Below, piece by piece: positions 20,672-26,628 of a stretch of 37,884 nucleotides of DNA. A program made the translations under genes and the position numbers. Position 1 is the first letter of the stretch; each line of letters begins with the position of its first letter. The stretch comes from Chthoniobacterales bacterium (lineage in GTDB: Bacteria > Verrucomicrobiota > Verrucomicrobiia > Chthoniobacterales > DYNR01): positions 1 through 37,884 of the forward strand of contig JAOAAX010000008.1 in NCBI GenBank assembly GCA_026418675.1, written 5' to 3'. The notes below the pieces were generated by a model. The model did no database searches. It had not been told where the DNA came from and was given only the letters and a program-made list of their open reading frames with translations.

Positions 20672-22663
20672 TTAGAGGTAGGGTTGAGCAGCCGGGGAAT
20701 TGACGATTTCGATCCAGATGGGGAGGGCGGTTGCAGCGCCAGTTGCGTTGGGGAAGATGGTTTTGGGTTTGTCGAAGCCGACCCAGACGCCCGCGGTGAG
20801 GTTGCCTACGAAGCCGACGAACCAAGCATCGAAGAAGTTGTTGGTGGTTCCGGTTTTTCCGCCGCCGCCGACTTTATGGCCGAGGCGCGAGGAGGAAGCT
20901 GCAGTGCCGCGGGTGAGGACTTCCTGCATGGTCCAGCGGACGAAGGAAGCAGCGTAGGGGTCGAGGAGGGGGGTGCGGATCTGGCGGGAGGAATAGAGGA
21001 TGTTGCCGTCCATATCTGTGATTTTGCTGATAACGAATGGGTGGACTTGGTTGCCTTTGTTTGGGAAGGCGGTGATGGCGGAGACGAGACTGCGGAGGTT
21101 GGTTTCGAAGGCACCGAGGAAGATAGAGGGGTAGTTGGGGAGCTGGTCGGCGATGCCCGCGCGTTGGAGGAGGCGGATAAAGTTTTCAAGTCCTGCACGG
21201 AAGCCAGCACGAACGGCCATTGTGTTGCGAGAATAGATAACGATGTCTTCTACGGGGCGTGGGCCGAAGTAACGGCCATCGGCATTGGATGGATCGTAAG
21301 GACCGAATTTTCTGGGGACTTCGGATGGGGAGAGGCGGGCGTCGGAGATTCGGTCGGTAGGGGAGAGGCCAGCGGCGAGTGCCTGAGCGAGAAGGAAGGG
21401 CTTGACTACAGAGCCGGCCTGGCGCTGTGCGAAGTAGGCGCGGTTAAATTTGCTTGTGGAGTAATCGCGGCTGCCGACGACAGCGCGGACGGCACCGTTG
21501 CGGTTGTCTATGATGAAGACTGCGCCTTGGAGGGGTTCGTGGGAGTTTAAATAAGGATAACCTTGTCTATTTTCTATTTGGAGGAGGTGGTTAGCGAGAG
21601 CGGATTCTGCGGTGGTTTGGAGGGGGAGGTCGAGAGTTGTGTAGATGTTGAGACCTGCGTCTTCGATGCCGAGTTGATCGAGGATGGGCTCGAGTTCGCG
21701 GCGGACGGTATCCATGGCCCAACCGTCGGCGGTTGAGACAGGTGGGTTGGAGGAGAGAAGGAGAGGGGAGGAGGAGGCTTCTTGGGCTTCTGCGGGGCTG
21801 ATCCAGCCGAGTTCGAGCATGCGAGCGATGACGGAGTTGCGAGCTCGGAGGGAGGCTTCTGGGTCGTTGAATGGGGAGAGACGAGTTGGGCTGCGGATAA
21901 GGCCGGCTAGGAGAGCGGCCTCTGCGAGAGTGAGATTGCGTGCTGGTTTGTCGAAGTAAGTGAGGCTGGCGGTTTGGAGGCCGTAGCAACCGGAGCCGAA
22001 GTAAATGCGGTTGACGTAGCTTTCGAGGATTTCCTCTTTGGAGAGTTCGGTTTCGATACGGAAGGAGAGAGCTGCTTCGAGGAGCTTGCGGTGGTAGTTT
22101 CTTCCGCCGAGAGGGAAGCTGTTGCGTGCGAGTTGTTGTGTGATCGTGCTTCCACCCTGACGAATGCCACCGGCGATGAGATTTCTGAGTGCGGCGCGGG
22201 CGATGCCGATGGGATCTACACCGAGGTGGCGGTAGAAGCGTGCGTCTTCGCGTGCAAGGAGAGCTTTGATGAAGGATTCTGGGATTTCATTGTAGGGGAT
22301 GACGATGCGGTTTTCGCCGCTGTAGCGGCCGATGATTTGGCCATTGGCGTCGTAAACAACGGTGCGCTGTGGCATTTGGTGGAGTTCGGCGAGGTTGTAG
22401 CGCAGGGCCATGAGGTAGTAGATGACGCCGACGAGCGCATAGAGGAGGAAACAGGCGAATGCCAATTTGGCTAATATAGGGAGGAGGTGGCGTTTTTTTC
22501 TTTTGTGAGCTGGTGAGTGGTAAGGGTGAGGTGATTTTTGGCGGTTGAAGGATTGGGAGGTTCGGCGTTTTGAGATGGGGCGGTTGCTGAGGGAGCGCTG
22601 GATGACGGCTTGGAGGAGGTGAAGTGGGGGAGATTTTCTGGGGTTGGATGGGGGAGGCTTCAT
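20672..22663 (-). CDS. Class A penicillin-binding protein (PBP1A-type)
   Basis: 663 residues. Polymerises and cross-links peptidoglycan. A long basic Pro/Ser/His-rich cytoplasmic tail (1-58) precedes a membrane helix (about 62-86). The GT51 glycosyltransferase domain has EDARFYRHLGVDP (catalytic E139) and RQGGSTITQQLARN (168-181). The transpeptidase domain has SVVK (418-421, catalytic Ser), SRN (478-480) and KTGTTNN (603 onward). Its start overlaps the stop of the C39-like gene by one base (TAATG), so it is the last gene of a leftward operon with the RND pump and the glycine cleavage genes. The cytoplasmic tail is longer than in E. coli PBP1a. Confidence 0.95.
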   Translation of the reverse strand: MKPPPSNPRKSPPLHLLQAVIQRSLSNRPISKRRTSQSFNRQKSPHPYHSPAHKRKKRHLLPILAKLAFACFLLYALVGVIYYLMALRYNLAELHQMPQRTVVYDANGQIIGRYSGENRIVIPYNEIPESFIKALLAREDARFYRHLGVDPIGIARAALRNLIAGGIRQGGSTITQQLARNSFPLGGRNYHRKLLEAALSFRIETELSKEEILESYVNRIYFGSGCYGLQTASLTYFDKPARNLTLAEAALLAGLIRSPTRLSPFNDPEASLRARNSVIARMLELGWISPAEAQEASSSPLLLSSNPPVSTADGWAMDTVRRELEPILDQLGIEDAGLNIYTTLDLPLQTTAESALANHLLQIENRQGYPYLNSHEPLQGAVFIIDNRNGAVRAVVGSRDYSTSKFNRAYFAQRQAGSVVKPFLLAQALAAGLSPTDRISDARLSPSEVPRKFGPYDPSNADGRYFGPRPVEDIVIYSRNTMAVRAGFRAGLENFIRLLQRAGIADQLPNYPSIFLGAFETNLRSLVSAITAFPNKGNQVHPFVISKITDMDGNILYSSRQIRTPLLDPYAASFVRWTMQEVLTRGTAASSSRLGHKVGGGGKTGTTNNFFDAWFVGFVGNLTAGVWVGFDKPKTIFPNATGAATALPIWIEIVNSPAAQPYL

Positions 22664-23359
22664 TACCTTGGACGATAGAAGCGAATGGCTTCGATAGGAA
22701 AAGGGTAAAGGTTTGCGAGCGGGAGGGGAATGGGTTGATGGGATTGGGCTGGGTCGAGGACGAGGTAGTCGAAATTCTTTTTTCCGACGATGACGACAAA
22801 GTGAGTCTGGGAGGAGGGGAGGCGGATGCGAGCGATGACGGGATTTTGGCGGAAGAGGTTTAGATCGAGGAGGGCATAGGAAGGGAGGTTTTCGTAGTGA
22901 GGGAGGAGCTGGGTGGTGAGGGCTGGGTCGAATTCAGCGGCGTCTTCCCACCAAATCCGGCCGTTTTGGGTGTAGCCGCGCGGGTGATGGGTGAGGAATT
23001 GATTGAGGGAGGCTGGAGTAATATTGGCACCGCGGAAGGCTAGGACCATAGCGGCAGAAGCGACGGCACAGCCTTCCTGGGCGAGGGTGCCTGGAGTGTG
23101 GCCAAGGTAGTGGGATGCCCAGCGGGGATCGGTTTGAGAGAAGTGGGGAACCTTGAGTTGGAGTGTGAAGGGGAAGTAGAGACCGCCGGATGGAGGGAGA
23201 GGGCGCAGCTTGGTCCAGTGGGAGAACCAAGAGAGGGAAGCGATTGCGAAAGATATGAAGAGAGCAAAGGTGAAGAGGAGGGGATATTTTCGATATTGAG
23301 ATACATTTTTTTGTTTTTTTTTTTGTGGGAGTGGGTGTGATTGGAAGGGTCAGGGGCAT
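22663..23359 (-). CDS. C39-family peptidase-like protein, frame broken at an A11 run
   Basis: A membrane-anchored papain-like (C39) domain. The intact frame reads from the TM segment through HYLGHTPGTLAQEGCAVASA, where Cys is the presumed nucleophile, to THFVVIVGK (His) and YLVLDPAQS (Asp), ending in TAA that overlaps the PBP start. In that frame there is no ATG, GTG or TTG between the upstream stop and the TM segment. An ATG at 23357-23359, overlapping the RND pump stop by 10 bases, starts MPLTLPITPTPTKKK and enters the C39 frame exactly if one A is removed from the run at 23314-23324, giving 231 residues. The run could be a sequencing error, a phase-variable tract or a slippage site. Substrate unknown; double-glycine leader cleavage or a non-proteolytic role are both possible. 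Confidence 0.75.
23306..23324 (-). repeat. Homopolymer tracts A11-C-A7 at the start of the C39-like gene
   Basis: On the minus strand, 11 A (23314-23324), one C and 7 A (23306-23312) lie about 30 bases after the likely start codon. Loss of one A, or gain of two, in the longer run restores the full reading frame. Confidence 0.85.
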
Positions 23360-26300
23360 GAGGTGGATGTGGCAAGGGGGGATTGGGTAGTGGAGACAGA
23401 TGCGGGAGAGGTAGGGATGGGTTTTAAGATTTTGTGGAGGTCGTCGAGGACGCTGTAGAGGCAAGGGATGAGGAGCAAGGTGATGGTGGTGGCGAAGGCG
23501 AGGCCGAAGACGATGGCTTGTGCCATAGGTGCGAGGAATTGTTCCTGACCGCGGGTTGTGAAAGCGAGACTGAGCAGGCCAGCGATGGTTGTTGCGGTGG
23601 TAAGTAGGATGGGGCGAAAGCGGAGTTTGGCGGTGATGAGGATGGATCGCCAGCGGGTGAGTTTGTTGAGGTGGAGAGGTTGATGACGGGGGTTTGCCTC
23701 GGGGTCTTTGGAAGCGGTATGACGGAGACGGTTGATAAAGTCTACGAAGACAACGGAGTTGTTGACGACGATGCCTGCGAGGGCAATGGTGCCCATGAGG
23801 GACATGAGGCCGAGGGGGTTTCCAGTAATGAGAAGACCTAAGAGGACGCCAATGAGGCCGAAGGGGATGACGGACATGATGACGAGTGGCTGGAGGAAGG
23901 AATTTGTAATGACAGCAAGGAGGGTATAGATGAGGAGAAGAGCTACGACTGCGGAGAATTTCATGGCCTTGAGGCTTCGCTCAGTGTCGCGATTTTCGCC
24001 GGAAAGCTCGGCGCGGCAATCTGGATATTTTGGGAGGATTTCGTTTAACCAGGATTTGATGAGCTTGTTAGCAGCTCTTGGGGTGGTTACTCGTTCGTCT
24101 ACATCTGCGGAGACGGTTATGGCGCGCAAGGTATTTTTGCGTTTGATACGAGGGGAAATGGACTGAGGCTGGATGGTTGCGATTTGGTCGAGAGCAACTG
24201 GCTGCCCTTCGCGATTGAGGATTTGGAGGGAGTAGAAATTCTGCGGATTTTGAAGGAAGGTTTCCGGAGCTTTTACGCGGAGGATGACTTCGTCATTTCC
24301 CCATCGCAAGCGTGTGGCTTCGACTCCGCGAAAGAGTGCTTGAGTGGCGAGGGAAACATCGGTTGTATCGAGCCCAGCACGGATGGCAAGGGATTCATCA
24401 ATTTGGATAGAATACTCTGTTTTCCCTGGAGGGAAGTCGTTGGTTGGGTTGAGGATGCCTGGTGTGCTGGCGAGGCGTTGTTGGAGTTGTTGTGCGATTT
24501 CGAGGAGCTGAGGGAAATCTGGACCGCGGAGTTCGATATTGATGGGTTTGCCGACTGGGGGCCCACCTTCTTTTGGCTTGGCTGTGGCGGAAACGAACTG
24601 AGGGAATTCGGTGAGGATGCGTTGGATGTGGCGGGCGATGGTGGAGGGTTTTCTGGCGGCTGGATTTTCTTCGTCGAGATCAATGGTGATCATGGCGAGG
24701 TTTTCGCCGTATTCGAGGAACTGTTCTGTTGGGTCTAATTTTGCGCCGATGCGAGTGATGATGCCGAGGATTTCTTGGTTGGGGATTTCAGCGGCGATAC
24801 GCTCCTCGAGTTTGCTTACGACGGCTTCTGTTTGGCGTAGTGAGTAGTCGTGGGGGAGCTGCAATTTTACGATGAGGAGGTCGGCAAAATCAGTGCTAAA
24901 GAGTTTGAATGGGACGGCGCCAGTGGCGATGAGTGCGACGAGTGCGAAGAGAGCGGCGATGAAGGCGCCGATGCTCCAGTAGCGCCAACGCAAGCAAAGG
25001 ACGAGTGCGTCAAGGTAAAGGCGGATGATAAATTGGAGGAAGGAATCTACAGCTTGGCGGAGTTCTGCGTAAGTGAGGGAAATTGATTTGCGGAGTTTAC
25101 CGAAGAGGGAGGATGGGGATTGAGCGGCGATTTGTTCGGGGGTGGATCCGGGGCGGACGAAATCGGCGATATGGCTTGGGAGGACGAAGAAGGCTTGGAG
25201 GATGGAGAAGATCAAAGCTGTAATGACGACGAGTGGGACGATGGCAAGGAATTTGCCGATGATACCCTCGCCCCAGATGAGTGGGAGGAAAGCAGCGATG
25301 GTGGTGCTAACGCTACCTATGATTGGCCAGAAGACTTCTTTTGCTCCGTCAATTGCGGCTCTGATGGGGGAGAAACCGCTTTGGATAAGCCGGTAACAGT
25401 TTTCTGCCATGACGATAGCGTCGTCAACGACCATACCTAGAGCCATAATCAAGGCGAAGAGGGAGAGGAGGTTTATAGTGTTCTCTGACAAATAGAGAAC
25501 GATTAAGGCACCTGCAAAAGAGACGGGAATGCCAATTCCAACCAAGAGGGCGATTCGCCAATCCAAGAAGAGGAGAAGGAGGAGGGTTACGAGAATGAGA
25601 GCTTGGAGTCCATTTTGAGTGACGGTGTTGATTCGGGTTTTGATGAACTTGGTGCTTTCGCTGAGGACTTGGGTTTTGACGCCTTCTGGGAATTGAGAGG
25701 CTGCTTTACGGAAGATGGCTTTGCAGTTTTCTGCTGTCTGGATGGCATCGGCGCCTCTTTTTTTGACGATGGTGAAGGTTACGGCTGGACGGAGGTTTGC
25801 GCGGCCCAAGCGGCGTGGCCGCTCGGTTCCATCTATGAAAGTAGCGATGTCGGAGAGGTGGATGGTTCCTGCGCCTGGGATGTGGCGGATGGCGATTTTT
25901 GCGAGGTCATCTGGGGTAGTTGCTTCGCCTTGGATGCGGAGGATGCGGAGGCCATCGGCTGGTTCAATACGGCCTGCGGCGACATTGAGGTTTTTCCTAC
26001 GAATTGGCTCGATGATTTGTGGATAAGTTAATCCGAGTTGTTGGAGAATGCTGGGTTGGATTTCGATCCAGACTTCGCGGCGATCGAGTCCGTCAACGAG
26101 GACATTGGATACTCCTGGTTGGATTTTGAGTTCACTTTCGAGGTTTTTGAGGGTTTGGCGCAAGGAGAGGGGGTTGAGGCCTGGTGGGAAATAGACGGCA
26201 AAGGTGACGAGAGGGAATGGGATGTCGAAGGTTTCGACGATGGGTGGTTCGGCTGTGGAGGAGATTTTGGGCTTAGCTTTATCAACGGCCTGGCGGACTT

Positions 26301-26628
26301 CGTTGAGGACGGGTTCGATATTTTGGACTTCTGAATCAACTTCCAGGTAAACGGTGCAGATGAATTCTTCGCAAATTGCGCGCATGTCCACGATGCCTTT
26401 GACGTTACCGAGTTCTTCTTCGAGCGGGATAGCGATGGAGCGTTCGATTTCTGCTGGGATGCTGGTTTCTGTGTCAATGACGCTGACGGTGATGAAGTTG
26501 GTGCTGACGTCTGGGAAGAGGTCGAGCTTGAGGTGAGTTGTTGCGGCAAGGATTCCTGCTAAAAGGACGACGATCATGGAGAGGTTGGCGGCGACGCGAT
26601 TACGGACACTCCATTCAGCCAGAGACAT
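23350..26628 (-). CDS. RND efflux pump, inner-membrane transporter (AcrB/MdtB type)
   Basis: 1092 residues. Twelve membrane helices in two halves with two large periplasmic loops. N-terminus MSLAEWSVRNRVAANLSMIVVL, with the usual SVRNR entry to helix 1 and helix 4 GMVVDDAIVMAENCYRLI, whose Asp pair is the proton relay. PVSFAGALIVLYLSENTINLLSL and, in the second half, IPFGLIGVLLGLLITGNPLGLMSLMGTIALAGIVVNN are family blocks. It starts 28 bases after the adaptor gene ends. No outer-membrane channel gene is in the window. Substrate cannot be told: the helix 4 DD pair fits the drug/hydrophobe type rather than heavy-metal pumps. Its stop lies 10 bases inside the next gene. Confidence 0.96.
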   Translation of the reverse strand: MSLAEWSVRNRVAANLSMIVVLLAGILAATTHLKLDLFPDVSTNFITVSVIDTETSIPAEIERSIAIPLEEELGNVKGIVDMRAICEEFICTVYLEVDSEVQNIEPVLNEVRQAVDKAKPKISSTAEPPIVETFDIPFPLVTFAVYFPPGLNPLSLRQTLKNLESELKIQPGVSNVLVDGLDRREVWIEIQPSILQQLGLTYPQIIEPIRRKNLNVAAGRIEPADGLRILRIQGEATTPDDLAKIAIRHIPGAGTIHLSDIATFIDGTERPRRLGRANLRPAVTFTIVKKRGADAIQTAENCKAIFRKAASQFPEGVKTQVLSESTKFIKTRINTVTQNGLQALILVTLLLLLFLDWRIALLVGIGIPVSFAGALIVLYLSENTINLLSLFALIMALGMVVDDAIVMAENCYRLIQSGFSPIRAAIDGAKEVFWPIIGSVSTTIAAFLPLIWGEGIIGKFLAIVPLVVITALIFSILQAFFVLPSHIADFVRPGSTPEQIAAQSPSSLFGKLRKSISLTYAELRQAVDSFLQFIIRLYLDALVLCLRWRYWSIGAFIAALFALVALIATGAVPFKLFSTDFADLLIVKLQLPHDYSLRQTEAVVSKLEERIAAEIPNQEILGIITRIGAKLDPTEQFLEYGENLAMITIDLDEENPAARKPSTIARHIQRILTEFPQFVSATAKPKEGGPPVGKPINIELRGPDFPQLLEIAQQLQQRLASTPGILNPTNDFPPGKTEYSIQIDESLAIRAGLDTTDVSLATQALFRGVEATRLRWGNDEVILRVKAPETFLQNPQNFYSLQILNREGQPVALDQIATIQPQSISPRIKRKNTLRAITVSADVDERVTTPRAANKLIKSWLNEILPKYPDCRAELSGENRDTERSLKAMKFSAVVALLLIYTLLAVITNSFLQPLVIMSVIPFGLIGVLLGLLITGNPLGLMSLMGTIALAGIVVNNSVVFVDFINRLRHTASKDPEANPRHQPLHLNKLTRWRSILITAKLRFRPILLTTATTIAGLLSLAFTTRGQEQFLAPMAQAIVFGLAFATTITLLLIPCLYSVLDDLHKILKPIPTSPASVSTTQSPLATSTSCP

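Follow-up and report, generated by a model that had tools for sequence, protein, structure and literature searches.

The C39 bacteriocin-processing transporter peptidase is a peptidase fused to an ABC transporter. The gene treated here is C39-like, and it lies out of frame beside a run of 11 A. An A run of that length is described in tssM1 of C. rodentium, where the A11 sits 28 nt before the stop of the long ORF; RT-PCR products carry 10-15 A, frameshifting runs at about 20%, and slippage was demonstrated by ESI/MS and with reporters (PMC4256274). Frame breaks are also treated in the GeneTack survey of complete genomes, which takes singleton frame-shifted genes as likely cases of indel or sequencing error (PMC3711429).

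A startless peptidase frame behind an A tract

The window, meaning the whole stretch of 37,884 nucleotides that was analysed, comes from a 2.34-Mb metagenome-assembled genome (MAG) in 131 contigs; the contig with the C39-like gene is number 120 of these. The features of the locus are as follows, in the order in which the minus strand is read.

23350..26628, minus strand: RND pump, the upstream gene (ACR_tran, PF00873), with its TGA at 23352-23350
23357..23359, minus strand: ATG that overlaps the stop of the RND gene; losing one base of the A tract would fuse its frame to C39
23314..23324, minus strand: A11 tract (T11 on the plus strand)
23313, minus strand: C separating A11 from A7
23306..23312, minus strand: A7 tract
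23304..23306, minus strand: second ATG, out of frame, right behind the A tract and close to the N-termini of the relatives' proteins
22663..23349, minus strand: C39-like peptidase frame, open, 228 codons, with its stop TAA at 22665-22663
20672..22663, minus strand: penicillin-binding protein, the downstream gene, with Transgly and Transpeptidase domains

Reading the minus strand in the C39 frame, the first ATG, GTG or TTG is the Met codon at 23049, downstream of the catalytic-type Cys, so the sequence-only reading was right that the frame has no start of its own. Its ATG at 23359-23357, over the region of the RND stop (TGA 23352-23350), and its A11-C-A7 tract are likewise there, and the frames read as it proposed: with A10 instead of A11, a product of 231 residues runs from ATG 23359. 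The remaining, third frame contains a TTG at 23375, which the opposite length change would fuse to C39; since a start codon arises with either direction of change, the exactness of the join to ATG 23359 carries less weight than that reading gave it. The second ATG (23304-23306) has one base in common with the in-frame GTA codon at 23304-23302. Downstream, the C39 stop and the start of the penicillin-binding protein overlap (TAATG), and the RND pump, the C39-like peptidase and the penicillin-binding protein probably form one operon.

Other routes to translation were considered and set aside. For an in-frame start of non-canonical kind, no ATG, GTG or TTG was seen before the helix, and near the position where a start would be expected stands GTA, an unlikely start codon. 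The TGA of the RND gene shares the C39 frame, and reading through it has no support. Inspection by eye revealed no convincing slippery site for a ribosomal frameshift after ATG 23306.

Identity of the peptidase

The protein belongs to Peptidase_C39_2 (PF13529; E 7.3e-10, 40 bits against a cut-off of 24). It also passes narrowly the profile of the C39 transporter peptidases (PF03412; 24.9 against 22), but Pfam reports no ABC transporter domain in the 228-aa frame, so it is not a fusion of that type. An alignment of 18 sequences, the window's counted in, has 38 invariant columns, among them Q72, C94, H183 and D199, which we take to be the catalytic-type residues, Cys, His and Asp presumably being catalytic. 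The AlphaFold model (mean pLDDT 87.8) shows a long N-terminal helix at residues 19-46. Two Foldseek matches reach E <= 0.001, the C70 protease 6hqz and the C39-like 3erv, followed by the ComA/PCAT1 peptidase domains; TM-scores of the best PDB matches are modest (0.45 by query for 3erv). Profile and predicted structure thus both support the C39-like assignment made from the bare sequence. Judged by its sequence the gene is an ordinary conserved C39-like cysteine peptidase, and the model suggests that its product is probably anchored in the membrane via the single N-terminal helix.

The locus in relatives

The C39-like gene was searched for in 97 genomes, this MAG and 96 relatives, none of them of the same genus, and was matched in 79 (78 of the 96 relatives). 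Loci were fetched from 77 of the 78 matching relatives; the one left out (G093) has a partial match in a 126-codon frame. Searching named genomes with only the window protein as query gave no relatives, and an alignment-based search gave 192 loci, of which the best 80 were used. These named loci, a set that overlaps with the 77, are mostly from Verrucomicrobiota of the Spartobacteria/Chthoniobacterales kind, including Chthoniobacter flavus Ellin428, with a few from other groups, all judged by their record titles. From them, and from searched genomes labelled as belonging to the same order, the window too is probably of this kind. At least one in-frame ATG, GTG or TTG precedes a reference column in 77 of 77 fetched relatives and in all of the best 80 of 192 named loci, some of these codons being there by chance. 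The window alone, among both overlapping sets, has a startless C39 frame. Within at most 260 nt before the reference column (L136 and L189 have shorter upstream DNA), the longest A/T runs in these best 80 of 192 loci are four of exactly 8, with none of 9 or more. A startless frame was thus seen in none of the other loci examined, and a run as long as A11 in none of the 80.

These counts bear directly on transcriptional slippage, by which a fraction of mRNAs would be brought into frame on the A11 and a minority of full-length peptidase would be made from ATG 23359 (or from TTG 23375 after insertion). A long A/T homopolymer (A11, 23324-23314) does lie between the frames, and the tract lengths required fall inside the 10-15 A spread reported for tssM1 (PMC4256274). 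As cited in PMC6260861, deletion predominates for E. coli RNA polymerase on A11 in vitro, but on the poly(A) runs examined in that paper's own reporters the enzyme gave no deletion slippage. Programmed slippage would further lead one to expect tract and break to be conserved, and in the relatives they are not (in-frame starts in 77/77 and 80/80, runs of at least 9 in 0/80, the latter two among the best 80 of 192): the broken frame occurs in no examined relative. With tssM1 as a close precedent, slippage is plausible in kind; as an account of the locus we rate it as rather improbable. A literature search found no paper on transcriptional slippage in Chthoniobacter, from which we claim no absence from print.

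Slipped-strand phase variation, in which tract length would differ between cells and turn the peptidase on or off, meets the same distribution. A repeat tract does stand near the 5' end of the gene, at the frame break, the product is probably anchored in the membrane, and further long tracts break genes in this MAG (see below); against it, a comparable tract is present in 0 of the best 80 of 192 named loci, and the 97 genomes searched include no second member of the genus. Going by the sequence, we give phase variation only a slight chance.

Start positions in the relatives raise a different explanation, a start just after the tract, since damaged, which the sequence-only reading did not weigh. 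The true start would have been directly behind the A tract, at about GTA 23304-23302 or ATG 23306-23304, and a small change or an erroneous base would have removed it, in a recent pseudogene or through a consensus mistake; A11-C-A7 would then be an A-rich 5' leader. In the same-family genome and in 15 genomes of family f6, likely starts picked by eye precede the reference column by 34-46 codons, a range that includes the window's GTA (40 codons) but not ATG 23359 (58 codons); among more distant relatives, some show an ATG 50-59 codons ahead of the column. In the 18-sequence alignment (A1), six relatives (L005, L007, L010, L012, L014 and L018) begin with a Met that aligns to window residue 18, two codons past the GTA (residue 16). 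In the one same-family relative, G001, an A8 run lies 5' of the ATG, and 3 of the 19 other A-runs of at least 10 in the MAG (L063, L075 and L078) end at most 3 nt from a start codon, those of genes for an ABC ATPase, a protein with a SUI1 domain and, below its Pfam cut-off, a Cache-like protein. A damaged start accounts for the relatives' start positions better than a lesion in the tract does, but it requires an independent lesion, at one codon, next to a tract of just the sort at which two further genes of the MAG are broken. A-rich leaders are also not usual for genes of the window (mean A fraction 0.28, sd 0.11, 19 genes). We regard a damaged start as unlikely, yet as the strongest of the rival accounts.

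In flanks of at most 1.5 kb and 3 kb, the RND pump was not found beside the relatives' C39 gene, and the penicillin-binding protein was found beside it only at L004 and L136, apparently one contig; this neighbour occurs again in the sole same-family genome.

Long homopolymers elsewhere in the genome

Runs of A11 length are rare in the 2.34 Mb: counting both strands, there are 20 A-runs of at least 10, four of them exactly 11, along with 105 A-runs of exactly 9 (a non-A base on either side) and 23 G-runs of at least 9. Two conserved genes are broken at long homopolymers. An IcmF/TssM-like gene (L221) changes frame at a C23 (contig C50:2404-2426), with positions 6-189 of PF14331 matched before the shift of frame and positions 192-254, below the cut-off, matched in a different frame. 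Nine relatives have a match to it, with open frames of 1133-1268 codons in seven and of 827 and 815 codons in two whose matches lie at contig ends. A polytopic membrane protein without Pfam match (L224) changes frame at a G13 (contig C98:67657-67669); it is matched in 49 of 56 relatives, where most open frames have 556-785 codons and shorter ones have 336 (G019), 373 (G052) and 475 (G012). When the two halves of each gene were matched to relatives, they shared a single frame in 8 of 9 loci for the C23 gene and again in 8 of 9 for the G13 gene (L230 had no ORF2 match and L246 no half-A match).

Shorter runs and one long one behave otherwise. The window holds 20 T7 and three T8 runs; Pfam matches 17 of its 20 other proteins, and inspection noticed no split domain, a few profiles being matched only partly. 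One C17 run sits inside a frame that is open over its full 2.5-kb stretch. The frame trouble seen thus lies at long tracts, a pattern to be expected from mis-sizing, from real indels or from contingency loci.

A codon-usage test of frame across 42 other homopolymers scored one side as noncoding in 39 and was mostly uninformative, because one strand carries 14 of its 16 training genes. It placed L220 in the same frame, called L221 and L228 shifted, and missed L224, although homology shows the break there. The set of broken genes was accordingly restricted to the homology-backed L221 and L224, and L228 was not counted.

Among the runs listed, the longest of A or T is a T24 at contig C52:146713-146736 (L069), just 3' of a 225-codon frame. 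A C17 at contig C131:70893-70909 (L222) forms the extreme end of its contig, where the assembly may have stopped at the homopolymer.

A length lesion as the preferred reading

We judge it somewhat probable, from sequence comparison, that the C39-like gene is out of frame in this genome through a homopolymer-length lesion, either an assembly error or a real indel. The A11 may have been mis-sized in sequencing or assembly, or it may be a real indel carried by the lineage (or by part of the sampled population); the length of the A tract would have thrown the 5' end of the gene out of frame, and translation would begin at ATG 23359 through coupling to the 3' end of the RND gene. An error or plain indel is favoured because the startless frame was seen in this genome alone and because long homopolymers also break two further genes of the MAG that relatives keep in a single frame. 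On these grounds we infer that the frame break stems from an error or simple indel rather than from an evolved switch. A lesion in the tract, which we likewise infer in preference to one in the start codon, would account for the C39 break by the same kind of event as is seen twice more in the MAG.

Several observations count against the length lesion. ATG 23359, at 58 codons, lies outside the 34-46 range of the same-family and f6 genomes. The 11 codons from that ATG score -0.10 in codon usage, nearer the off-frame means (-0.35 and -0.44) than the coding mean (0.64), though the first 11 codons of nine known genes range from -0.32 to 0.87, a spread that keeps the score from being decisive. The T7 and T8 runs of the window show no visible gene breaks, and the C17 run lies within an open frame.

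The title of the sequence-only reading had the peptidase switched by its A11 run. An evolved switch at A11 is not supported: the startless frame was seen in this genome only, and the two other genes that break at homopolymers have one frame in relatives. That reading had also listed phase variation, slippage and homopolymer error as options; the relatives and the two other breaks favour error (or a plain indel), and phase variation keeps only a slight chance. In a broader version, long mononucleotide tracts of the lineage (A11, C23 and G13) would serve for contingency or slippage, and the membrane-anchored peptidase, a core component of a secretion system and a second membrane protein would each be made in only a fraction of cells or transcripts; this seems to us quite improbable. 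Should reads reveal mixed tract lengths at all three genes, the case would be one of contingency loci based on homopolymers within this section of the Verrucomicrobiota. The locus illustrates how one MAG's homopolymer may mimic a genetic switch; both relatives and the other tracts of the genome count against one here.

Comparison with known systems

The C39 locus resembles tssM1 in having an 11-A run between two frames of one gene (PMC4256274). It differs in that its tract stands at the 5' end, was not seen in relatives and is read from DNA sequence. Like the GeneTack singletons, the C39 break occurs at a poly-A/T tract and is shared by no examined relative; the survey covered complete genomes, whereas the present case comes from a MAG (PMC3711429). 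Within Peptidase_C39_2 (PF13529), the window protein has the Cys, His, Asp and Gln columns, and Foldseek pairs it with 3erv; it departs from that family in its predicted N-terminal helix, its lack of an ABC transporter domain, and a 5' end that, among the genomes examined, this MAG alone has out of frame.
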